A DNA stretch of 64,000 bases, from positions 1-64,000 of the IMG/VR virus record IMGVR_UViG_3300017755_003158; one strand, 5' to 3'. A program made the position numbers and the translations under genes. The stretch is from a virus. The notes under the pieces were generated by a model that was not told where the DNA came from, did no database searches, and was given only the letters and a program-made list of their open reading frames with translations. This document shows, one piece after another, positions 15,041 to 64,000 of this stretch. Within the stretch, counting starts at the first letter, position 1, and each line of letters begins with the position of its first letter.

Positions 15041-15595
15041 ATGGTTGAAGAACGACTCAGAAAGATCGATGGAAAGTCTCTGTGGTATTTTGATAATATC
15101 TTTACTTTCGAAGAACGAGAAAGACTATATAGTTATTGCTTAAACAAAAAGTATTCGCTAAGTGGCTCTGATGTACAAAGATTGGAGACTAAAGGCGACT
15201 ATAACTTATATTGTAATCTCTCTCTCGTTGATGTGGAAAATATGGGGATAGAGGATATAAGCAATTACTCCCACATCAAACACCACTTAGATGACTATAC
15301 AATAACACAAGCTAGGATTAACCTTAGTACAATCCAGGATAAAAATCGTTTTCATTGCGATACTGGTGCTGAGCATAATTTAACCATGCTATATTATCCC
15401 AACATGGAATGGGAAAAGTCTTGGGGTGGACAAACACTGTTTACTAACTCAACCAACGATACCCTAGACTGGGCATCGTTCTATATTCCAGGGAGGATAA
15501 TTTTATTCGATGGCACAATACCCCACACAATCAACCCACCAACAATCCACAGCCCAACGCACAGATTTTCAATCGTCATTCAGTATGGAAAATAA
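15041..15595 (+). CDS. 2-oxoglutarate/Fe(II) oxygenase-like protein (prolyl-hydroxylase type)
   Basis: The protein has 184 residues. The double-stranded beta-helix iron site is visible as HCDTGAEHNLTMLYY (HxD), a distal histidine in IPHTINPPT, and Arg in THRFSIVIQY, which would bind 2-oxoglutarate. GRIILFDGTIPH is the usual strand before the distal His. Such enzymes hydroxylate proteins, nucleic acids or small molecules. The substrate is unknown; the gene lies directly before nrdA and overlaps its upstream region. Confidence 0.7.
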   Translation: MVEERLRKIDGKSLWYFDNIFTFEERERLYSYCLNKKYSLSGSDVQRLETKGDYNLYCNLSLVDVENMGIEDISNYSHIKHHLDDYTITQARINLSTIQDKNRFHCDTGAEHNLTMLYYPNMEWEKSWGGQTLFTNSTNDTLDWASFYIPGRIILFDGTIPHTINPPTIHSPTHRFSIVIQYGK

Positions 15596-15596
15596 A

Positions 15597-17402
15597 ATGG
15601 AAGATAAATTAATTTCAGAGATACATGGTATCACAATAGACTATACTAGAGATTCTCTACTAGATGATGCTGGTAAAATACGATTAAGAGAATCGTATAT
15701 GAAAGATGATGAAACTTCTCCGCAAGAAAGATTCGCTTTTGTATCAAAAACTTTTTCATCTAATCCTGAACATGCTCAAAGGTTGTATGATTATTCATCT
15801 CAACATTGGCTAAGTTATGCCACTCCTATTTTATCTTATGGTAGAAGTAAAAGAGGATTGCCTATTAGTTGTTTCTTAAATTATATTGAAGATTCTTCTG
15901 AAGGATTAGTACAAAATTTATCAGAAACTAACTGGTTGTCAATGTCAGGTGGTGGTGTAGGCATAGGATTCGGTATTCGTAGTGCCGATGATAAATCTAC
16001 TGGTGTTATGCCACATATGAAAATGTATGACGCATCTTCATTAGCATATCGTCAAGGTCGTACAAGAAGAGGTAGCTATGCTGCGTACTTAAATATTGAC
16101 CATCCTGATATTAAAGAATTTATTGAAATGAGAAAGCCGACTGGCGATCCTAACATGCGAGCATTAAATATGCACCATGGTATTAATATCCCACACAGCT
16201 TTATGCAGATTATCGAAAACTGTATGAAGAATGAAAACTGTGATGATAAATGGGCACTCAAGGATCCGCATAATGGAAAAGTAAAAGAGTATGTATCGGC
16301 TAGAGAATTATGGCAAAGTATTTTAGAAACTCGTATGATGACTGGTGAGCCATATCTACACTTCATTGACACTAGCAACGAACAGATGCCAGAGTTCCTA
16401 AAAGAAAAGGGTTTGAAAATTCACCAAAGTAATTTATGTTCAGAGATTATACTTCCTACTAATGAGGAAAGAACTGCTGTATGTTGTTTATCATCTTTGA
16501 ACTTAGAACACTATGATGAGTGGTCAAAAAATAAAACATTCCTGAAAGATGTAGCTGAAATGCTTGATAATGTTTTGCAGTATTTTATTGATAATGCTAG
16601 ACCTGAATTATCTCGTGCCAAGTATTCAGCTGAGCAAGAAAGATCTATCGGGATAGGTGCTTTGGGTTTTCATGCTTACTTACAGAAAAATGGAATACCT
16701 TATGAAAGTGCCATAGCAGGAAATAGAAATGAAAAGATTTTTAAACATATTAGAACTGGACTGGATAAAGCAAACATTGAGATGGGTATTGAGCGAGGGG
16801 AAGCACCTGATGCTACTGGTACTGGTCGGAGGTTTAGCCATATGCTTGCTATTGCTCCTAATGCTAGTAGTAGCATTATCATGGGTAATACTTCTCCTAG
16901 TATCGAGCCTTTTCGAGCTAATGCTTATCGTCAAGATACACTTTCTGGATCTCATACCAATAAGAATAAATTCCTTCAGAAACTACTGGAGAAAAAAAGT
17001 AAAGAGAGCAAGTTAAATCTAGATGATGAATGGTCAAGTATTATAGCAAATGATGGTTCAGTACAGCATCTAAAATACCTAACAGATTTAGAGAAAGATG
17101 TATATAAAACATCTATGGAGATGAACCAACAATGGATTATAAACCATGCCAGTGAAAGACAAAAATATATTGACCAAGCACAGTCAGTTAATTTATTCTT
17201 TAGACCTGACGCAGATATTAAGTATTTACATGCTGTTCACTTCTTAGCATGGAAGACTGGTCTAAAAACACTGTATTATTGTAGAAGTGAAAAGATCGGT
17301 AAAGCCGATAAAATTAGTCGAAGAATACAAAGGGAGATAATTAAAGAGTTAGACATATCAGCGATAGCCGATGGTGATGTCTGTCTCGCTTGTGAAGGAT
17401 AA
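15597..17402 (+). CDS. nrdA: Ribonucleoside-diphosphate reductase, class I alpha subunit
   Basis: The start at 15597 (GGAAA upstream) gives 601 residues; in-frame starts at 15510 and 15585 would overlap the preceding gene more deeply. Active-site features are present: the redox Cys pair in PISCFLN and AVCCLSS, the radical Cys in NLCSEI, the Tyr pair in LKTLYYCRS, and a C-terminal CLACEG tail that shuttles electrons from glutaredoxin. The N-terminal ATP-cone is absent, as in many phage enzymes. It reduces NDPs to dNDPs with NrdB (20932); glutaredoxin (19642) is encoded between them. Confidence 0.93.
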   Translation: MEDKLISEIHGITIDYTRDSLLDDAGKIRLRESYMKDDETSPQERFAFVSKTFSSNPEHAQRLYDYSSQHWLSYATPILSYGRSKRGLPISCFLNYIEDSSEGLVQNLSETNWLSMSGGGVGIGFGIRSADDKSTGVMPHMKMYDASSLAYRQGRTRRGSYAAYLNIDHPDIKEFIEMRKPTGDPNMRALNMHHGINIPHSFMQIIENCMKNENCDDKWALKDPHNGKVKEYVSARELWQSILETRMMTGEPYLHFIDTSNEQMPEFLKEKGLKIHQSNLCSEIILPTNEERTAVCCLSSLNLEHYDEWSKNKTFLKDVAEMLDNVLQYFIDNARPELSRAKYSAEQERSIGIGALGFHAYLQKNGIPYESAIAGNRNEKIFKHIRTGLDKANIEMGIERGEAPDATGTGRRFSHMLAIAPNASSSIIMGNTSPSIEPFRANAYRQDTLSGSHTNKNKFLQKLLEKKSKESKLNLDDEWSSIIANDGSVQHLKYLTDLEKDVYKTSMEMNQQWIINHASERQKYIDQAQSVNLFFRPDADIKYLHAVHFLAWKTGLKTLYYCRSEKIGKADKISRRIQREIIKELDISAIADGDVCLACEG

Positions 17403-17407
17403 AATAC

Positions 17408-18322
17408 ATGATAAACTTGCCAGAACATCTTAGTTATGACAAAGAAGCAATAGCCAAACTAAGAACACAAAAAATATTTCGTTATGGAGATGTAAAAAGA
17501 TTTGATGACGAGTTAGATTTCCTTATGGGTTTCGTACCTGATTTAACAAGGGATTTTTTAACAGAATATGAAGATATAGAAGATTGCCTAAAAAGAGGTA
17601 CGACTTCTGCATTAGAATCAATATACAGTCAGTTGAAACGATCTCGTGAAGGAAGTCCCGATAAGATTGCTAGAGCAAAGATGCAAGTGGGTATGGATGA
17701 TAATATGCTAAAGGGTCAATCAACTGCAGGTGAATATAATAACGATGCTTGGCGAGTCTTAGTTATGAAATACCATAACCCAAATATTGTTGGGTCTGGT
17801 GCTGATGAAAAGATTCAAAAGCGAATGTTAAACATCAAACAAAAGCAAGACGGATATAATCCTGAAGCATTCCCAACTATGAAAAAAATTGCTGAGCATT
17901 ATAAAGAAAGATGCCCTATACTTGAATACAGTATATTACCTGCTCAAAGTATTATTGAAAGACACATAGGTATAGAAAATAAGAAAGGGGAAAATATTAG
18001 AATACATATTCCTCTTATAGTACCTGAGGGAGATTTATTTTTAGAAGCACAGGGCGAGGAAGTTGATTGGCAACACCCATGGGGATTTAATAATCAATAT
18101 ATGCATAGTGCTCATAACAATACTGATGAGCATAGATTGATTATGCTGATTGATTTAAAAAGAACTTATGTTGGTATCCCACCAGCAAAACATTTTAAGG
18201 ATATGACTTTAGATGAAATCGGTGATGTCCATTTTAAATACGCAAGAGATAATAAACGAGAGCAACCTGAAATCTCATCATCTCTTTCTAATAAATTCAG
18301 GAAACAAGAGGATTATATATGA
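17408..18322 (+). CDS. Aspartyl/asparaginyl beta-hydroxylase-like protein
   Basis: The protein has 304 residues. The C-terminal ~120 residues carry the family core: IIERHIGIENKKG, RIHIPLIVPEGDLFL, GFNNQYMHSAHNNTDEHRL. The first and HSAHN histidines and the EHR arginine are the expected Fe(II) and co-substrate ligands. The N-terminal half is helical, with KIFRYGDVKRFDDEL resembling the minus-strand paralogs at 62461 and 63203 (KIFKRGEYPKLD). These enzymes hydroxylate Asp/Asn or peptide residues using 2-oxoglutarate and O2. Substrate unknown. Confidence 0.75.
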   Translation: MINLPEHLSYDKEAIAKLRTQKIFRYGDVKRFDDELDFLMGFVPDLTRDFLTEYEDIEDCLKRGTTSALESIYSQLKRSREGSPDKIARAKMQVGMDDNMLKGQSTAGEYNNDAWRVLVMKYHNPNIVGSGADEKIQKRMLNIKQKQDGYNPEAFPTMKKIAEHYKERCPILEYSILPAQSIIERHIGIENKKGENIRIHIPLIVPEGDLFLEAQGEEVDWQHPWGFNNQYMHSAHNNTDEHRLIMLIDLKRTYVGIPPAKHFKDMTLDEIGDVHFKYARDNKREQPEISSSLSNKFRKQEDYI

Positions 18323-19038
18323 TAAGTACTACAAGTGAAAGAGAACAAGTGGCTGAAATAGTAAAGGATGAAACTTCTGGACTATTTTACAGACCAGATT
18401 TAGGAGAGTTGTTCGTTATTAAAGAGATGACTCAATATGCTAAATTAGATTTCAATGATAAAGTTGTAATGGATGTAGGTGGGCATATAGGATGCTTTAC
18501 AGACCTAGCACTAAAGAATGGTGCTAAGCATGTATATACTTATGAGCCAACACCTGAGAGTTTCGAAGTTATGGAGAAAAATGTAAGTAATGAAAAAACT
18601 ACATTATTCAATACTGCTCTCGTAGGAGATTCTAGAGATTCAGTAGATTTTTACTTATCTAAAAAGTATCCAACTTGTCATACTCATATGCCTGTTAAGG
18701 GAAGAGAGAAACTTACTGTAAACGCAGAAAACTTTTGGACTAAATTAAAAGAACATAAGCCAGAAGTATTAAAGGTAGATGTAGAGGGTGGCGAGTATGA
18801 CTTTATATTTCAAGAAGAGATGCCTGACTATGTTGAGCAAGTTGCTATTGAGTTGCATCTGGGTAAAAAAGGTTATAAAGAACTTGGTATCCAAGCAACT
18901 AGATTATTTAATGAGTGGAATTATCATACTAAATTTAGATATAGTTGGCACATAACAACATTAATACTACATAGAACTGCTCCTGGACTGGGGTTAGTAA
19001 AAGATAAATTAGAAGAGTTGGGGGTAGGATGCCAGTAA
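18319..19038 (+). CDS. FkbM-family SAM-dependent methyltransferase
   Basis: The protein has 239 residues. SAM-binding motif I is MDVGGHIGCFTDLAL (~52-66), the acidic end of beta-2 is YTYEPTPESFE, and the FkbM hallmark VDVEGGEYDFIF occurs at ~155-166. FkbM enzymes O-methylate sugars, lipids or secondary metabolites. It overlaps the preceding hydroxylase gene as ATGA, so the two are co-translated. Target unknown; glycan or lipid modification is a reasonable guess. Confidence 0.8.
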   Translation: MISTTSEREQVAEIVKDETSGLFYRPDLGELFVIKEMTQYAKLDFNDKVVMDVGGHIGCFTDLALKNGAKHVYTYEPTPESFEVMEKNVSNEKTTLFNTALVGDSRDSVDFYLSKKYPTCHTHMPVKGREKLTVNAENFWTKLKEHKPEVLKVDVEGGEYDFIFQEEMPDYVEQVAIELHLGKKGYKELGIQATRLFNEWNYHTKFRYSWHITTLILHRTAPGLGLVKDKLEELGVGCQ

Positions 19039-19244: not shown

Positions 19245-19645
19245 GTTGGCTTCGTAATACTGTATATGTTTTAATAGCATTAGTTGCTTTAACAGGTTGT
19301 GCTAGTTTAAAAGGATTAATTCCTTCTGGCTGGGACAGCAATGAAATGCTATGGATCGCAGAAATGCAGTATGACATTCGTAATATTGAATGTGAAGGCG
19401 ATAATAAACTAGCCAGTGTAGAAAAGGTTTGGCGAACAAAAGAAATTTTATGGTGGTATGCTCAAGCTAATAGACATCAAGATGTCATTGAGTTAATAAG
19501 ACCATTTAGTGAAAGTATGGAAGGAATATATAGATCTGCTAAAGCAGATAAGTTAAGGAAACCATACTGCGTAAATAAAGTTATCATATTGACTATACAG
19601 GTTGATGAGATAGCTGAAGCATTAGCATCAAGGAGAAAAAGATGA
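19241..19645 (+). CDS. Putative lipoprotein (134 aa)
   Basis: A signal sequence with lipobox ALTGCAS at ~18-24 predicts lipid modification and export. The mature part is helical, with two Cys (ECEG and PYCVNK) that could form a disulfide, and it ends in basic residues. It could act in superinfection exclusion or as an envelope protein; nothing specific is recognised. Confidence 0.65.
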   Translation: MSWLRNTVYVLIALVALTGCASLKGLIPSGWDSNEMLWIAEMQYDIRNIECEGDNKLASVEKVWRTKEILWWYAQANRHQDVIELIRPFSESMEGIYRSAKADKLRKPYCVNKVIILTIQVDEIAEALASRRKR

Positions 19646-19896
19646 GATTAACAATTATGGGTAAAAATAATTGCCCTTACTGCGATTTAGCAAAAAGACA
19701 TCTAGATGAACATAATATTCCATATGACTATATCAAAGTTGATGAAGATATGGAAGCATATGAAAAATTTAGAGAGCTCGGTGTTCGCTCAGTCCCACAA
19801 ATAATGCAAGAAGGAAAGATTGTTATTGAAGGTGGCTGGGAAGGACTAAAGAAAACACCAATCAATCACTTACAACAAATGGTCGGAGGAGAATAA
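19642..19896 (+). CDS. Glutaredoxin
   Basis: The protein has 84 residues with the dithiol active site CPYC (~11-14), the cis-Pro motif RSVPQIM and the GSH-binding GGWEGL region. Glutaredoxin reduces the C-terminal cysteines of NrdA; T4 encodes the analogous NrdC. It is placed between nrdA and nrdB in an overlapping gene chain. Confidence 0.92.
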   Translation: MRLTIMGKNNCPYCDLAKRHLDEHNIPYDYIKVDEDMEAYEKFRELGVRSVPQIMQEGKIVIEGGWEGLKKTPINHLQQMVGGE

Positions 19897-20120
19897 TGGA
19901 CGCATTTAAAGATCTTCGTAATGAAGAATGGGCAAACAAAAAAGTAGAACTTGCCGATAAATTTAGTAAACAATTAGAATCTGGTGAACTCAACGAGTGG
20001 GAATATAAAGACTTAATGCAAGATCTTACTCGTACTGATGAAATAATGGACAAAGCGAACGCAATGAAAATGAAAGCAGCAGTAGAGAAAGCTATTTCAT
20101 TGGCATTAAAGTTTGTATAG
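19896..20120 (+). CDS. Small helical hypothetical protein (74 aa)
   Basis: A charged, all-helical protein (VELADKFSKQLESGELNEWE, AMKMKAAVEKAISLALK). It starts one base before the glutaredoxin stop ends. No function recognised. Confidence 0.5.
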   Translation: MDAFKDLRNEEWANKKVELADKFSKQLESGELNEWEYKDLMQDLTRTDEIMDKANAMKMKAAVEKAISLALKFV

Positions 20121-20787
20121 ATTTTTATTTAAAGATTCAGAAGAGGTATTCGATCCTATAACTCGTCAAAAAATACTTGAAAAAGTAAACTACCACGAGA
20201 AATATTGGAAACCACTATCTGACTATTTCAACAGTGCTTTGTTTGTGCAACCTGGAATGGAATATATGTATCTGTTTGGTGACGGATTATATGTATTACA
20301 GGATAAAAACGACATAGACTGGGAGGTACAGGAACTATTAGATACTGAGTTTTCTGATATTATATATACACCTGTACTCAAAACACTGGAGGAAATTTTT
20401 GGGATTGGAGTAAAAGAAGTTTCTTATTATAAGGACTTGCCACTTCCAGGATTTCATATCTATAAAGGTAATGATATTGGCTTAACTAAGAGCCGACCTT
20501 ATCATACCGATGATAATCTAAGATTTTACAAACCTGAACTCAATAGAGAACAAATATACTCTTTTGCGATACCGATTGAACTGCCAAAAGATGGGGCATG
20601 TTTAGATTGGTTAGGGGATTCTAGCGACTACTTTACTCATAATTATGAACTAGGAAAAATGTCTTTATGGCATGGGATGGTTAAACACCGATTGGGTGCC
20701 AAACCACCAACTACTGAAAATAGAATAACTTTACAGGGTCATGTTTATGTTGATTATAAAACTGGCATACTTAAAACATATTTTTAG
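20113..20787 (+). CDS. 2OG-Fe(II) oxygenase-like protein
   Basis: The only credible start is TTG at 20113, overlapping the previous gene; no ATG occurs for 140 nt. The protein has 224 residues. PYHTDDNLRFY gives the HxD motif, WHGMVKHRLG the distal His and ENRITLQGHVY the Arg. The spacing fits the cupin-fold oxygenases. The substrate is unknown. It lies between glutaredoxin and nrdB. Confidence 0.65.
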   Translation: MYRFLFKDSEEVFDPITRQKILEKVNYHEKYWKPLSDYFNSALFVQPGMEYMYLFGDGLYVLQDKNDIDWEVQELLDTEFSDIIYTPVLKTLEEIFGIGVKEVSYYKDLPLPGFHIYKGNDIGLTKSRPYHTDDNLRFYKPELNREQIYSFAIPIELPKDGACLDWLGDSSDYFTHNYELGKMSLWHGMVKHRLGAKPPTTENRITLQGHVYVDYKTGILKTYF

Positions 20788-20931: not shown

Positions 20932-21927
20932 ATGGCGAAAAAGCAACTCAAACTAACTGACGAAAGAACATTCTTCAAACCTTTTAACTACCCATGGGCA
21001 TATGAAGCATGGCTCAAGCATGAGCAATCACATTGGCTTCATACTGAAGTGCCTATGATTGAAGATGTTAAAGATTGGAAGACTAAGATTACTGCTGAGC
21101 AGAAATACTTTTTAACTAATATCTTTAGATTCTTTACTCAGGGAGATATTGATGTTGCTGGTGGTTATGTAAATAACTACTTGCCATATTTTCCACAACC
21201 AGAAATCAGGATGATGTTAAGTGGGTTTGCAGCAAGAGAAGCACTTCATATTGCTGCTTACTCACATCTGATTGAAACTTTGGGTATGCCTGAAAATACA
21301 TACCAAGAGTTTGCTGAATATCAAGAGATGTCTGATAAGCACGAATACTTTATTAAACTATCAGAATCTAATGGCAACAAAAGATCGGTTGCTACTAATA
21401 TTGCTGCATTCTCAGCTTTCACTGAGGGTATGCAATTATTTTCTTCATTCATTATGCTACTAAATTTCCCAAGACATGGCATGATGAAAGGTATGGGTCA
21501 AATCGTAACATGGTCTATTGTAGATGAAACTCTACATGCTGAAAACATGATTAAACTTTTTAGAACTTATATTGAAGAAAACAAATCTATCTGGAATGAT
21601 AAAACTAAAAGCGATATCTATAAGATCGCTACAAAAATGACTGAACTCGAAGATAAATTTATTGACTTGTCTTTCGCTATGGGCAATATGCCTGACTTAA
21701 CAGCTGAAGATGTAAAAAAATACATTAGATATATTTGCGATCGTAGATTAATTAGTCTAGGATTAAAGGGTATCTGGAAAGTCACTAGAAATCCACTACC
21801 ATGGGTTGAGGAGATGATAAATGCTCCTACACATGGGAACTTCTTTGAGAATAGAGTCACTGATTATGCGAAAGGAGCACTCGCTGGGGACTGGCAAGAA
21901 GTTTGGGGTGTCAGTGCTACTGCCTGA
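20932..21927 (+). CDS. nrdB: Ribonucleoside-diphosphate reductase, class I beta subunit
   Basis: The protein has 331 residues. The diiron ligands are visible in AAREALHIAAYSHL (ExxH, with the radical Tyr in AAYSHL), SAFTEGMQLF and VDETLHAENM (ExxH). NrdB generates the tyrosyl radical that drives nucleotide reduction in NrdA. It is separated from nrdA by about 3.5 kb that holds two oxygenase-like genes, a methyltransferase, a lipoprotein and glutaredoxin. Confidence 0.93.
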   Translation: MAKKQLKLTDERTFFKPFNYPWAYEAWLKHEQSHWLHTEVPMIEDVKDWKTKITAEQKYFLTNIFRFFTQGDIDVAGGYVNNYLPYFPQPEIRMMLSGFAAREALHIAAYSHLIETLGMPENTYQEFAEYQEMSDKHEYFIKLSESNGNKRSVATNIAAFSAFTEGMQLFSSFIMLLNFPRHGMMKGMGQIVTWSIVDETLHAENMIKLFRTYIEENKSIWNDKTKSDIYKIATKMTELEDKFIDLSFAMGNMPDLTAEDVKKYIRYICDRRLISLGLKGIWKVTRNPLPWVEEMINAPTHGNFFENRVTDYAKGALAGDWQEVWGVSATA

Positions 21928-58356: not shown

Positions 58357-58558
58357 AGACGACTTACATGTATTCACTGTATCTTTTATAGTGCTTCCTG
58401 ATACTAAAATGCAATACCAAGATGTTCATGAACATACTTATGGTGGTGCTGGAGAATTTATTAGAACACACTCAAAACAACACCAAGTAAAAAGTATTGC
58501 CTACAAAGAATATTGGGGACCGAGTGGTTTGATTAATGGGGAGAGGAAGTTTCCTTAA
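58343..58558 (+). CDS. Small hypothetical protein (71 aa)
   Basis: A compact product with histidines (DVHEHTYGGAGEFIRTHSK, QHQVKSIAY). It ends 4 nt into the convergent minus-strand gene. Function unknown. Confidence 0.5.
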   Translation: MSHYKDDLHVFTVSFIVLPDTKMQYQDVHEHTYGGAGEFIRTHSKQHQVKSIAYKEYWGPSGLINGERKFP

Positions 58559-60258
58559 CTTGCGTATTTCTGTCCAAACTGATACAGGTTATCGCCATTC
58601 TTAGTACTCTTAGGAAATTGTAAGCCAGTACTATTAGAATTGGTATTATTTGATACATTAGTATTATTCACAACAGTAGTATTACCACCACCACCAGCTA
58701 ATCCTTCAGGAGTTAAATCTAACAATGGTCTACCATCCAGTGCCATGTCATTCTCAATACCTTTCCCCATGTCTTCTATACTGACACCATTAACAGTACT
58801 AATAGGTGTGAAGTTTAGTGCATCTGCATTTCTCTCATCGAAATCTTTTATCTTCTGTTCTGCGGAAGTTCCTTCACCAGCTGGTGCACCTTCACCACCT
58901 TCTACTTCTGTTTCGCCATCTCTGAATGGGAAAAATCCACCAAAGGATACTTCTGTACCAATAATTGGAATCTTAAATGAGAAAGCAGGAATACCAAAAT
59001 TATCCATGATAGTATCAAAGAAACTGTAAACCTTTTCTTTCAAACCATCAAAGCCAAATAATCCAGCTACAGCATCAAGTATATTCAAGAAGAACTTCGG
59101 TATGATTAATATTAAATCAAAGAAGAAGTCAGATATATTTTTGAATAATCCTTCGCCATCGGTATTGGTAAATATATTCATTAATGAATTAAATAATTCT
59201 AGGATGGGTCGTATTGGTGCCATGATTATATTTGTCATAAACTCTACAATATGAGATATGAAACCTGCTATACCATCTATTAGTTTACTGAACATACTGG
59301 CGAATGAGAAACTATTAAGCATCTCTGCTGCTTTATCAAACCCAAACATACCAAGTACCCAAGCAACTGCTCCTTTAAGCATATCAAGTGGACCAAATAT
59401 TAATGAGTTGAATAAACCTTTAACAGCTCCAGCGATACCACCTATAATACCACCTTCAGCGAAACCTGCTAATGCTCCTTTGATTGTATCAAATAAAGTG
59501 ATAATAATTAATAGTGGTAAAAATACCTTTGAAGCAACTTTGGCTACAGCACCAATCGCCTTACCAAAGGTTGATATTGATGTCATGATACCTCTGAAGA
59601 AACCACTTATTCTACCAAAGATACTTACACCTGTTGAAACTGATTTGATTGCTCCCTTTAACATCTTACCCAACGCAATAAATGGTTGGAATAAAATAGA
59701 TAAACCTTTCATAAAGTTTTTTAATGCCTGAGGAGTTTTTCCTAATGCACTTGCACCACCTGATGATTTGAATAACCCAGTTAGTGGTTTAAGTAAATTA
59801 GAAAAACCTGTTCGTATGGCTGTACCGAAACCTTTAACAGTTCCAGTTAAACCTCTGAATAATGCTCTTATTTGTACTTGAAGTCTTGCAGGTGTGAATG
59901 CTTTTGCGAATAGACCAATAGTTTTAAGTTGAGCAGCAATAAGACCGATTAGTGAACCAATAACAACAGCAAGGACTTTACCAAACTTGCCTAATTTACT
60001 GAACGCAGATTCTTCTCCGCCACCACCACCATCATCTTTCTCGGCTTTACCTGCCAATATTTCTAGATAACCAGCCATAGCTGTAAAGACTTTCATCTGC
60101 TCGCCAGTTTCTTCTTTACTGGGCATCATCTCTGCTATTTTATCACCAATAAGATTAGCCAACTCCTCGTTCTTAGGAGTAGCTTTCCTTCTATCTGGTA
60201 ATGCGTCCTTATCGGATGGAGTCTTTTTTACTCCTTTATCTTCTTGTGGTAGTGCCAT
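58555..60258 (-). CDS. Tape-measure-like virion protein (567 aa)
   Basis: A charged N-terminus (~1-90) is followed by a long glycine- and Phe/Leu-rich region with several hydrophobic segments (LAVVIGSLIGLIAAQL, LLIIITLFDTIKGALAGF, IFGPLDMLKGAVAWVLGMFG). This is typical of tail-length or internal tail proteins that insert into the membrane on DNA ejection. The C-terminus is Asn/Thr-rich (GGNTTVVNNTNVSNN). Gene order next to gp51 and gp26 supports a baseplate-hub or tail assignment analogous to gp29, but sequence identity is not recognised. Confidence 0.6.
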   Translation of the reverse strand: MALPQEDKGVKKTPSDKDALPDRRKATPKNEELANLIGDKIAEMMPSKEETGEQMKVFTAMAGYLEILAGKAEKDDGGGGGEESAFSKLGKFGKVLAVVIGSLIGLIAAQLKTIGLFAKAFTPARLQVQIRALFRGLTGTVKGFGTAIRTGFSNLLKPLTGLFKSSGGASALGKTPQALKNFMKGLSILFQPFIALGKMLKGAIKSVSTGVSIFGRISGFFRGIMTSISTFGKAIGAVAKVASKVFLPLLIIITLFDTIKGALAGFAEGGIIGGIAGAVKGLFNSLIFGPLDMLKGAVAWVLGMFGFDKAAEMLNSFSFASMFSKLIDGIAGFISHIVEFMTNIIMAPIRPILELFNSLMNIFTNTDGEGLFKNISDFFFDLILIIPKFFLNILDAVAGLFGFDGLKEKVYSFFDTIMDNFGIPAFSFKIPIIGTEVSFGGFFPFRDGETEVEGGEGAPAGEGTSAEQKIKDFDERNADALNFTPISTVNGVSIEDMGKGIENDMALDGRPLLDLTPEGLAGGGGNTTVVNNTNVSNNTNSNSTGLQFPKSTKNGDNLYQFGQKYAS

Positions 60259-60450
60259 CTAGTTTCTCATCTTTAACTTTTGTTGTTCGTGTTTAGCTTT
60301 TTCTTCCTCTAAGTGTTTATGAAGCATAGTCGTATATATCTCTCGCTCGAATGGATACATATTTTCCAGCTCAGTCAAGGAATATTTGTGATGTTGCATT
60401 AAAGCGAAGTTCGTCTTATAATGGTTCATCAACGACTCATGGCTGAGCAT
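60259..60450 (-). CDS. gp51: Baseplate hub assembly protein, gp51-like (63 aa)
   Basis: The ATG at 60450 overlaps the gp26 stop (TAATG); longer starts would run inside gp26. The sequence FALMQHHKYSLTELENMYPF, then EREIYTTML, resembles the gp51-type small proteins of T4-like marine phages, with a charged helical tail. T4 gp51 is a hub assembly catalyst not present in the virion. Confidence 0.65.
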   Translation of the reverse strand: MLSHESLMNHYKTNFALMQHHKYSLTELENMYPFEREIYTTMLHKHLEEEKAKHEQQKLKMRN

Positions 60451-61184
60451 TATCCAAAAAAATTCTGTAAACCCTCCAAAGTTCTCTGATGAACTTTGCC
60501 ACAATTAGGACAAGTATATTCAATTTTATGAGTCATCTTTGGCATATGCTCAAAGAAATCTCTTATCTTAGAAAACTGGTCAGAAGTAAGATTGTTAATA
60601 AAATCATTTACTTCTTCAACAGATTGTTCTTGAATATAATGGAGTTCGTCTCCTTCATAAATAACTTCCATTGAATCCATTATAATATCAAATACTTTAT
60701 CAGGATCGCTATCTTGATTTAATCCTTGATATTTAATAATAGTTTCCAATGTAGGATACTTCATTACAACTCCTACATCTCCCCATAAGTCTATTCTTTT
60801 ATTGTGTCCTTCTGGGAAAGTGACAGGTATCGAGGTAATATCTACCGATAATTTTACTTGAGCTTTGGGGTTGTCAACACAACCAGCTTCTTCATTATCG
60901 CATTTACCGATTATCTCAACTATCTCACCTACAGATTTTCCTCTCATCTGAGCGAAACAATATTCTAGGTCGAAAGTTGCTAATCGTTTAACTTCTATTT
61001 CTTCTTGTACACAATTAGTAATTAATTCACGCAAGGTATTAACCATTGTCGTTTCATTTTCTGATTGCATAGCAAGCATCAATGCCTTTTCGTCTTTAAC
61101 AACGAATGGTCTAAATTTTACTTCTTGACCAGTAGAAGGAATTGTGAGTGGATGTAAAGCACTCGCATGTTTAGGTAAAGCCAT
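60450..61184 (-). CDS. gp26: Baseplate hub subunit, gp26-like
   Basis: The protein has 244 residues. VKFRPFVVKDEKALMLAMQS at the N-terminus and the central DLEYCFAQMRGKSVGE are recognised from the T4 baseplate protein family. The C-terminus has a CPNCGKVH zinc knuckle. It forms part of the central hub of the baseplate. Overlaps gp16 by one base. Confidence 0.8.
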   Translation of the reverse strand: MALPKHASALHPLTIPSTGQEVKFRPFVVKDEKALMLAMQSENETTMVNTLRELITNCVQEEIEVKRLATFDLEYCFAQMRGKSVGEIVEIIGKCDNEEAGCVDNPKAQVKLSVDITSIPVTFPEGHNKRIDLWGDVGVVMKYPTLETIIKYQGLNQDSDPDKVFDIIMDSMEVIYEGDELHYIQEQSVEEVNDFINNLTSDQFSKIRDFFEHMPKMTHKIEYTCPNCGKVHQRTLEGLQNFFG

Positions 61185-61708
61185 TATTTGTCTCCTTCAA
61201 TCGGGACATTCTTCATGTCCTTAATTAGTTTATTCAATTCAGTTGTTGAGCCAACATAGATAGAATTATTTTGAACTCCTGGAGCTCTCTCTTCTTTCTT
61301 GCCTTCTAACTTCTGTTTTTGCTGATGTAAATCTAATAGCTGTTGATTTATGTCAGCCTGTTGTTTCATGAGATTGCCTACAACTTCAAACGCACGAGGG
61401 TGTTCTGATTGTTTAGCTATCTCTAATGCATGATTAAGTGCTTCTTGACCTTTGTTTAAAATCGTTAATAGATTTAAACGAGTAGTATCATAATCACTCT
61501 CAATCTTTGCTTCTTTCGGGTCATATCCCGACATTACATTTGCTGCATCATCTACAGCAGATGGTAATTCATTTGCCTTAGCAATTATATCTTGATGCCC
61601 AGGAAGTATATCAGTTGGGCATGCTGCATCAGGATTATATACTGGTGTCCCATCAAATCCTGCTGGAAGGTCAAATACCTTGCCTAGTCCTTTATCAATT
61701 TTACTCAT
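61184..61708 (-). CDS. gp16: Small terminase subunit, gp16-like
   Basis: The protein has 174 residues. ESDYDTTRLNLLTILNKGQE and QSEHPRAFEVVGNLMKQQAD are the helical core motifs of T4-like small terminases, with coiled-coil flanks for oligomerisation. gp16 recognises phage DNA and stimulates the gp17 packaging motor, which is outside the window. Confidence 0.88.
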   Translation of the reverse strand: MSKIDKGLGKVFDLPAGFDGTPVYNPDAACPTDILPGHQDIIAKANELPSAVDDAANVMSGYDPKEAKIESDYDTTRLNLLTILNKGQEALNHALEIAKQSEHPRAFEVVGNLMKQQADINQQLLDLHQQKQKLEGKKEERAPGVQNNSIYVGSTTELNKLIKDMKNVPIEGDK

Positions 61709-62460: not shown

Positions 62461-63210
62461 TTAGATTCTTTTGTATTCTATGTTGGGATCGCCAGTTATT
62501 TGCTCCATTTTATCGTAAGCAAGTCCTGGAGGGATGTCTAAATATCTCCTATCAAAGTCAATCAGGAGTATTAGTCGGTGTTCGAAGGAATAATTATGAG
62601 CAGAATGAGTATATTGATTATTAAAACCGAAGCAATCAGACCAATCCACCTCTGAACCATTTACCTCTAAGAATATATCTCCCTTGGGTATATGTAGTGG
62701 TATATGTACTCTCAGGTGATGTCCACGACGATTCTCAGGTCCAGTATGCCTATGTATTACCGAATCCTTTACTAATATGCTATAATTAGCGATAGGAACG
62801 ACTTCTTCATACTGCTTTAATATCTTATTTGCTGTAGGATACTGGGGTCTGGCTTTCTCTCCTTCTGTATCACGATATATTGTAGAGGGTGGTTGGTATT
62901 TTAAATATACATTTTGCCATGCGTCTAGCTTTGCTGGTTTCTTATCTTTACTACCTGAAGCATGACCCATACTATCCCTACTCATTACAGGCACAGCTTT
63001 ATTATCTAACACCCATTGTAATTTTTTATCCATGCTCCACTTTTCATCTAAGTGACCAACGAGGTCATTTATTAGATTATCTTTCTGAGCAGATAACTCA
63101 TCAAATATATTATCTAACTTAGGATACTCTCCTCGTTTAAATATCTTTTGTTCTTGTATTTCTCGTAGTCTTTGTTTTGGTATTTCTGACCACCATGGCA
63201 AATTAATCAT
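62461..63210 (-). CDS. Aspartyl/asparaginyl beta-hydroxylase-like protein (249 aa)
   Basis: The core motifs are DSVIHRHTGPENRRG, RVHIPLHIPKGDIFLEV, GFNNQYTHSAHNYSFEHRL and LLIDFDRRYLDIPPG, supplying the Fe(II) histidines and an Arg. The N-terminus WWSEIPKQRLREIQEQKIFK, then RGEYPKLDNIF, parallels the adjacent gene. Overlaps the upstream gene by 8 nt. Substrate unknown; a virion protein is possible given its position among tail genes. Confidence 0.75.
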   Translation of the reverse strand: MINLPWWSEIPKQRLREIQEQKIFKRGEYPKLDNIFDELSAQKDNLINDLVGHLDEKWSMDKKLQWVLDNKAVPVMSRDSMGHASGSKDKKPAKLDAWQNVYLKYQPPSTIYRDTEGEKARPQYPTANKILKQYEEVVPIANYSILVKDSVIHRHTGPENRRGHHLRVHIPLHIPKGDIFLEVNGSEVDWSDCFGFNNQYTHSAHNYSFEHRLILLIDFDRRYLDIPPGLAYDKMEQITGDPNIEYKRI

Positions 63211-64000
63211 TATCTATTGCTCCTGACTTCCAACTTGGATTTAATACTTCCCCATCTCGTTCGTAGTCAACCAGATATTTATCTGTACAACCAGTGAGGT
63301 CTTGTAGTTTAGTTATGTAATAAGATGTGGGTATGCCAAGGAATGGTCTATATAAATCTAGTATCATGACCAATCTATGTTTACCTGTTCTGTTGTGTGC
63401 TGAATGTACGATTTGATTATTAAATGCGAAAGGTGCTTCGCTAAATTGTATCTCCTCGTCATTTACCTCTAGGAATATATCACCTTCAGGAATATGGAGG
63501 GGAAAGTGTAATCTTAAATACTTACCATCTTTATTTTCATGACCAGTATGACGCAGTACAACTGAGTTTGGGGCAATCATTGAGTAAGTAATTACATTTA
63601 TCCATTGTTCATATTTTTCTAAAATAGATCTTAACACTGGTAATCTATCACGATTCTTTTTCATTCGCTTTTCCATTACACCTTTACCAGCTTCTCCTGG
63701 ATTCCAAATTAAATTAAAAGCATGCCAACTGTCGAGGTTTCTCTTACCTAACTGTTTATTTCCTACATTGGCTTCTTTCGCCACCTTATACCCAGCAGTT
63801 TCAAATACAGGTAAAGTATCCTCTTCATACATTTTATTTAATCGTTGTTGTATATTGTCTCCTTCATAGGGAAGTAATACTTCTTCTAGTAAGGCAGGGC
63901 AGAGGGGGAGTATGTGGTCAAAGACTTCATCTAACATAGGGTATTCGCCATGTCGGAATATTCCCTGTATTTTTGAGTTGTGTAATTTTTCTCTAGACCA
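63203..64000 (-). CDS. Aspartyl/asparaginyl beta-hydroxylase-like protein, 5' end beyond window
   Basis: The frame is open to base 64000 on the minus strand. Residues upstream of the ATG at 63937 read WSREKLHNSKIQGIFRHGEY, then PMLDEVF, and align with the N-terminus of the paralog downstream (WWSEIPKQR...KIFKRGEYPKLDNIF). The true start is therefore outside the window and 63937 is an internal Met. Core motifs are NSVVLRHTGHENKDG, RLHFPLHIPEGDIFLEV and AFNNQIVHSAHNRTGKHRL. A tandem duplication with 62461 is evident. Confidence 0.78.
   Translation of the reverse strand, partial: WSREKLHNSKIQGIFRHGEYPMLDEVFDHILPLCPALLEEVLLPYEGDNIQQRLNKMYEEDTLPVFETAGYKVAKEANVGNKQLGKRNLDSWHAFNLIWNPGEAGKGVMEKRMKKNRDRLPVLRSILEKYEQWINVITYSMIAPNSVVLRHTGHENKDGKYLRLHFPLHIPEGDIFLEVNDEEIQFSEAPFAFNNQIVHSAHNRTGKHRLVMILDLYRPFLGIPTSYYITKLQDLTGCTDKYLVDYERDGEVLNPSWKSGAIDND

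Follow-up and report, generated by a model that had tools for sequence, protein, structure and literature searches.

A 64,000-base stretch of virus DNA (the window; bases 1-64000 of a virus record that is 70,029 bases long) ends, on its minus strand, in two adjacent genes that resemble Asp/Asn hydroxylases and lie among genes for building a phage particle. The question raised by this locus is how such a pair came to be in such a place, and what the two enzymes might modify. The source is an uncultured, probably marine T4-like phage; the marine assignment comes from the head-closure protein, among whose relatives in named phages the best-ranked are mainly from cyanophages and marine viruses. 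The genes at this end of the window are as follows.

63203-64000 in the window and on to record base 64024, minus strand: H1, the upstream member of the pair, a PF05118 hydroxylase of 273 aa
62461-63210, minus strand: H2, the downstream member, a PF05118 hydroxylase of 249 aa
61708-62448, minus strand: tail-tube protein (gp54/gp19-like), directly downstream of H2 (phrog_45 tail tube, 1.6e-32)
61184-61708, minus strand: terminase small subunit (phrog_445, 1.5e-34)
60450-61184, minus strand: baseplate hub, gp26-like (PF12322, 2.8e-59; phrog_150, 7.6e-63)
58555-60258, minus strand: tape-measure-like protein, further downstream (phrog_5493, 2e-7)

The original prediction had H1 continuing through base 64000 and named a stop codon just upstream as the finding that would speak against this. 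In the flanking sequence, which was obtained by fetching record bases 58001-70029 (stretch L004), no such stop is present, and the frame of H1 (L004:5203-6024) is open to an ATG at record base 64024, 24 bases beyond the window edge. H1 and H2, which overlap by 8 nt, are intact tandem PF05118 hydroxylase genes. Alignment with a third copy, H3, which had been placed at 17408, bears out the claim that the paralogs share a core and a matching N-terminal segment; H1 is 35% and H3 37% identical to H2, and H3, like the pair, passes the PF05118 cut-off. In a scan of viral contigs, the window's assembly-operon lineage is represented by 19 contigs; 17 have both H1 and H2, always with the 8-nt overlap, and the other two end at this place. 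The 17 are not independent cases, since several are identical or near-identical to the window (identical in H2). In L013, a contig of this lineage, a third tandem copy precedes H1.

Read in the order of transcription, the minus strand carries gp4 head closure, an endonuclease (phrog_452), the gp2 DNA end protector, H1, H2, the tail tube, the terminase small subunit, the baseplate hub, a small ORF, and the tape-measure-like protein; gp48, gp53, and a tail lysozyme run in the opposite direction. Intergenic spacing from gp4 to the gp26 hub is -8 to 20 nt, and because the overlaps reach only 8 nt and the gaps only 20 nt, these genes are probably co-transcribed. The earlier description of the pair as lying beside tail genes is correct downstream, where the neighbor is the tail tube, but not upstream, where the neighbor is the gp2 DNA end protector, followed by the nuclease and gp4 head closure. 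This is a mixed head/DNA-end/tail assembly operon, not a purely tail one. Its organization suggests that H1 and H2 are expressed late in infection, alongside the assembly genes. The T4 late-promoter octamer TATAAATA occurs 5 times in the window (versus 10.4 in shuffles) and not at all in L004; given its absence from L004, it is the operon context that argues for late expression. The position in the operon says nothing about the substrate. A PADLOC search gave no match that would link the locus to defense.

The origin of this arrangement can be judged from other phages. A gp2 scan (the best 80 of at least 590 relatives) together with a tail-tube scan (21 loci) provided 101 loci, read from mechanically made ORF maps. 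In 72 of these, gp2 and the tube are present with no hydroxylase, and the gap between them has a median of -1 nt (-88 to 21). In 15 loci, which represent 13 contigs since two appear twice, gp2 and the tube flank hydroxylases, at a gap of 1580-1590 nt, or 2386 nt in L013. Of the remaining loci, 8 have gp2 with no tube found, and 6 are truncated: 5 at gp2, which leaves hydroxylase and tube, and 1 at the tube, which leaves gp2 and hydroxylase. Within the tube scan, all 18 loci at 80% identity or more have the hydroxylase, and none of the 3 at 43-49% does. The homologous tube (30%) and gp2 (29%) of HTVC008M are separated by 171 bases with no annotated gene. A junction that is closed in the sampled relatives and open here argues that the pair was inserted into a tightly packed assembly operon in this lineage specifically; by these sequence comparisons the insertion is best read as a single event in one lineage. 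Two further points follow. As 72 sampled loci have gp2 and tube without a hydroxylase, the tail tube as such is independent of it, and, as the insertion has been fixed by descent in one lineage, its persistence at the junction is not independent evidence of a tie to the neighboring genes.

The PF05118 (Asp_Arg_Hydrox) scores are 65.5 bits for the part of H1 within the window, 63.6 for H2, and 51.4 for H3, all above the curated cut-off of 22.6. A phmmer search of H2 against the PDB gave no match up to E 0.1; with the hydroxylase profile A2, the PDB matches are AspH entries only. H2 residues S144, H155, R167, H169, H202, and R212 align with AspH Ser668, His679, Arg688, His690, His725, and Arg735, and PMC6817910 assigns His679 and His725 to the metal and Ser668, Arg688, His690, and Arg735 to 2-oxoglutarate (2OG). 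These six residues are present in 7/7 H1, 8/8 H2, and 4/4 H3 sequences; five of the six do not vary across the 62 aligned sequences, and 39 of the 42 outside sequences have the serine. AlphaFold models (pLDDT 89.5 for H2; 85.3 for H1, with two stretches below 50) both have human AspH as their best solved match, with Z 16.9 and rmsd 3.0 over 175 residues for H2 (next family, Z 11.2), and Z 16.2 and rmsd 2.8 over 171 residues for H1 (next family, Z 10.5); the AspH matches clearly exceed those to proline hydroxylases and PHD2. Each model thus has a double-stranded beta-helix fold closest to that of AspH. As judged from the conserved residues and the predicted structures, H1 and H2 look like active Fe(II)/2OG hydroxylases of the AspH fold.

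For the phylogeny, relatives were gathered by two viral-contig scans, both of which return several stretches of the same contigs and the second of which kept 80 of 123 relatives. Clustering 142 sequences at 92% gave the 73 representatives in the tree, which leaves out L001-L004, bacterial loci, and matches below 150 bits. Among these viral representatives, H1, H2, and H3 fall in one clade with support of 100/98, and the assembly-operon copies form one clade with support of 98/93. The duplication that had been proposed is therefore upheld: the tree supports one duplication that would have split H3 from the assembly copies, with a tandem duplication then giving H1 and H2. Because the root of this tree was not inferred, a direction of movement from the nrd block to the assembly operon depends on where that root lies. 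No relatives in bacterial or archaeal genomes were found with profile A1; profile A2 gave 16, at 26-38% over short segments, which were kept out of the tree. The hydroxylase of one relative (L043) matches a phage-collection record named Acinetobacter phage MD-2021a (5e-8, 34% over 48%), but the annotated neighbors there look chromosomal.

Relatives of the family occur in several other arrangements. An independent tandem PF05118 pair is seen in L023, L036, and L059, followed in L023 by a weak tail-fiber match and a head-decoration-like protein. In L085 (and, in a similar order, L082, L037, and L039) more than one PF05118 protein lies in an island with a tryptophan halogenase (PF04820, 4.9e-90, tested in L085). 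In L058, L060, L079, L064, L049, and L055 the PF05118 gene is directly downstream of one protein family, of which two members were tested; the N-terminus matches Mtd_N (tropism determinant) above the cut-off in L049 and just below it in L058.

The original prediction had also proposed that the duplicates have specialized, and for this the support is indirect. The stem branch of H1 is longer than that of H2 (1.18 vs 0.51 in the 73-representative tree), and among orthologues of seven contigs the median amino-acid distance is 0.238 for H1, compared with 0.141 for H2, 0.133 for gp2, and 0.147 for the tube. At the position of H2 residue 190, all 7 H1 sequences have Phe, while the other 55 of the 62 aligned sequences have Trp. 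Yet median pN/pS is low, at 0.27 for H1 (21 pairs), 0.19 for H2 (21 pairs), and 0.26 for H3 (6 pairs), and points to purifying selection. Divergence of H1 and loss of its Trp under such selection would be consistent with specialization.

The third copy lies far from the pair, in a ribonucleotide-reductase block on the plus strand.

15510-17402, plus strand: nrdA, directly upstream of H3 (phrog_84, 3.9e-163)
17408-18322, plus strand: H3, 304 aa, between nrdA and nrdB (PF05118; alignment; tree)
18319-19038, plus strand: FkbM-type methyltransferase, with a 4-nt overlap with the H3 stop (PF05050, 4.6e-11)
19642-19896, plus strand: glutaredoxin (PF00462, 5.7e-16)
20932-21927, plus strand: nrdB (PF00268, 1.3e-71; closest solved chain, 9dws)

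The order of the block is an FlmC-like 2OG oxygenase, nrdA, H3, the FkbM-type methyltransferase, glutaredoxin, a further ORF, and nrdB. The FlmC-like 2OG-Fe(II) oxygenase gene (window 15041-15595) reaches 66 bits against an NCBIfam cut-off of 240 and exceeds the cut-off of PF13640; its end runs 86 nt into the longest nrdA frame. The ORF just upstream of nrdB (window 20113-20787) has, by eye, an HxD...H...R pattern and the look of a 2OG oxygenase, with no match in Pfam or NCBIfam. Among the contigs examined, only the window's record carries all three hydroxylase copies on one contig. Contigs with H3 and contigs with the assembly copies are found together in six metagenomes (3300046830, 3300017783, 3300049740, 3300020463, 3300025151, and 3300012952), which fits co-residence. 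In H3 contigs of 117 kb and 131 kb, the best match to the window's tail tube is at 20-21% identity, none of it close, and the assembly region seems to lie outside these contigs. In uncultured phages (L144-L302), the space from nrdA to nrdB is a slot for variable cargo, ranging in length from an overlap to 3.9 kb. Among its 123 ORFs of at least 100 residues there are IscU-like, IscA-like, superoxide-dismutase-like, and other HxD oxygenase-like ORFs, these names being a reading of the sequences by eye rather than a family search. Homing endonucleases have been described between phage ribonucleotide-reductase genes (PMC3653736). The NrdB proteins of L032, L043, L066, and L131 have, by eye, one extra residue in a metal-site motif (E-T-x-I/L-H vs E-T-I-H).

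The explanation that we prefer, at a probability of roughly 0.6, is that a working pair of AspH-fold enzymes, inserted and duplicated in the assembly operon, acts late in infection to hydroxylate an Asp/Asn-like side chain of a protein; its anatomical and evolutionary part is very probably correct. A hydroxylase gene, sister of H3 in the nrd block, would have come into the gp2/tail-tube junction of one T4-like lineage and been duplicated there in tandem, after which H1 and H2 would have diverged. In late infection, translation of the two enzymes would accompany that of the assembly genes. By analogy with the family, two histidines would hold Fe(II), and Ser/Arg/His/Arg would hold 2OG; O2 would be activated and one oxygen inserted into a C-H bond of the substrate. 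H1 and H2 may thus each hydroxylate a carbon of an Asp/Asn-like side chain in a protein present at that stage. AspH as the nearest fold, together with the lack of a visible membrane segment, favors a protein substrate over a lipid, and we consider the chances of a protein to be about even. The EGF-like substrate motif of AspH, C-x-D/N-x4-F/Y-x-C, occurs 0 times in the six-frame open stretches of at least 60 residues in the 70,029-base record, which is a fragment and covers the phage side only.

Other readings of the family have been weighed against this one. H3 invites the idea that these enzymes are functionally tied to ribonucleotide reductase, either modifying NrdA/NrdB or serving its iron/oxygen chemistry, with H1 and H2 as later offshoots. 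Near nrdA/nrdB lie 19 of the 73 hydroxylase representatives, many of them between the two genes and several overlapping nrdB by 4-8 nt; the label of ribonucleotide-reductase neighbor changes at least 6 times on well-supported tree branches, and nrd-adjacent hydroxylases are found with two very different NrdB types. This argument from gene order, strong when the sampling is by hydroxylase, is weakened when the sampling is by NrdB: none of 72 operons with the window's NrdB type then contains the hydroxylase, and 2 of 68 with the other type do. (These operons come from the best 80 of at least 600 and the best 80 of at least 596 relatives, with 8 and 12 of each 80 dropped where nrdA was not found in the stretch, and the sampling may miss records very near the window.) In addition, the nrdA-nrdB interval carries many kinds of cargo, and the one-residue insertion near the NrdB metal site is also present where the hydroxylase is not. 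That insertion was rejected as a mark of the hydroxylase, as Xanthomonas phage X1 has it and its nrdA-nrdB interval is without a hydroxylase. Because the slot takes varied cargo, no role specific to ribonucleotide reductase follows for H3, and its placement does not establish a dedicated hydroxylase of that enzyme; we regard such a tie as improbable. An equally improbable reading makes H1 and H2 acyl hydroxylases that act on lipids or glycolipids, like LpxO and OlsC, and that would change the host envelope, for instance to keep out superinfecting phage. PF05118 does include lipid hydroxylases, the genes of some relatives are packed into islands together with biosynthetic and other oxygenase-like genes, and there are weak NCBIfam matches to LpxO (NF033391; 35.7 bits for H2, 23.0 for H1, 26.5 for H3) and OlsC (NF052565; 24.9, 22.0, and 19.3), but these scores are far under the curated cut-offs (500 bits for LpxO, 450 for OlsC). 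LpxO is membrane-bound, whereas no hydrophobic segment resembling a membrane span is seen in H2, H1, or H3 (best 19-residue means of 0.67, 1.28, and 0.70), and a position in an assembly operon does not suggest a lipid role.

Within the preferred reading of a protein substrate, no firm choice can be made between a virion protein and a host protein. In a further rival reading, the pair would be directed at the host, hydroxylating host proteins late in infection or mainly consuming 2OG and O2, with the operon as only a convenient slot for expression. In related viruses, several genes of this kind are dispersed along the contig (as many as 5 PF05118 matches on one contig, in 14 records searched), the 24 2OG-Fe(II) oxygenase genes reported for cyanophage S-SCSM1 (PMC9602691) count in the same direction, and elsewhere gp2 and the tube work without the pair (the 72 sampled loci). 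Set against this, the pair lies at the exact gp2/tube junction in 13/13 contigs showing both flanks, although shared descent also explains that; we see host-directed action as a possibility with the odds somewhat against it. The PF05118 genes of some relatives adjoin tail-fiber-like, Mtd_N-type, or head-decoration-like genes, which may fit a role on virion proteins. A virion protein as substrate is nonetheless doubtful, and a dedicated pair, co-translated with the assembly genes and modifying the phage's own virion proteins during particle building with one target per copy, is more doubtful still. The modification of tail proteins, as originally suggested, is possible.

Genes of the PF05118 type have already been seen in marine T4-like phages: an aspartyl/asparaginyl beta-hydroxylase is reported as core to pelagimyophages (PMC7029224), and two asparaginyl beta-hydroxylases are reported in P-HM1/P-HM2 (PMC3037559). 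These genes share the annotation of H1 and H2 and likewise belong to marine T4-like phages. A tblastn search of H1 and H2 against 50,697 phage records gave no match at 1e-5; with E up to 10, the best match of H2 is P-HM1 (0.2), in which the matching gene sits among unrelated genes. The only PF05118 match of HTVC008M, at 17.3 bits, is below the cut-off and lies outside its assembly operon. The LpxO/OlsC lipid hydroxylases are, like H1, H2, and H3, PF05118 members and distant relatives, but the phage proteins score more than ten-fold below the curated cut-offs for them and have no membrane segment. With human AspH, H1 and H2 share the fold, a two-histidine metal site with Gly where an acidic ligand is usual, and the 2OG-binding Ser/Arg/His/Arg. 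They differ from it in sequence (16-25% identity over the aligned structure) and in an insertion of 3 residues that follows the first metal His and precedes the 2OG-binding Arg/His. The TPR domain that is a feature of AspH has no counterpart in H1, H2, or H3 in a Pfam scan with E up to 0.1; about 70-105 residues precede the PF05118 match in the three proteins. The titles and abstract openings of the open-licence PMC papers listed by literature searches described neither a tandem of PF05118 genes within a phage assembly operon nor a single one between nrdA and nrdB. What appears to be new, then, is the lineage-specific tandem insertion at the gp2/tube junction together with the third copy in the nrd block. 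Unlike copies that are scattered, a pair fixed at an otherwise closed junction narrows the candidate substrates to a few that can be tested, and the 72 sampled loci that do without it provide a natural comparison.
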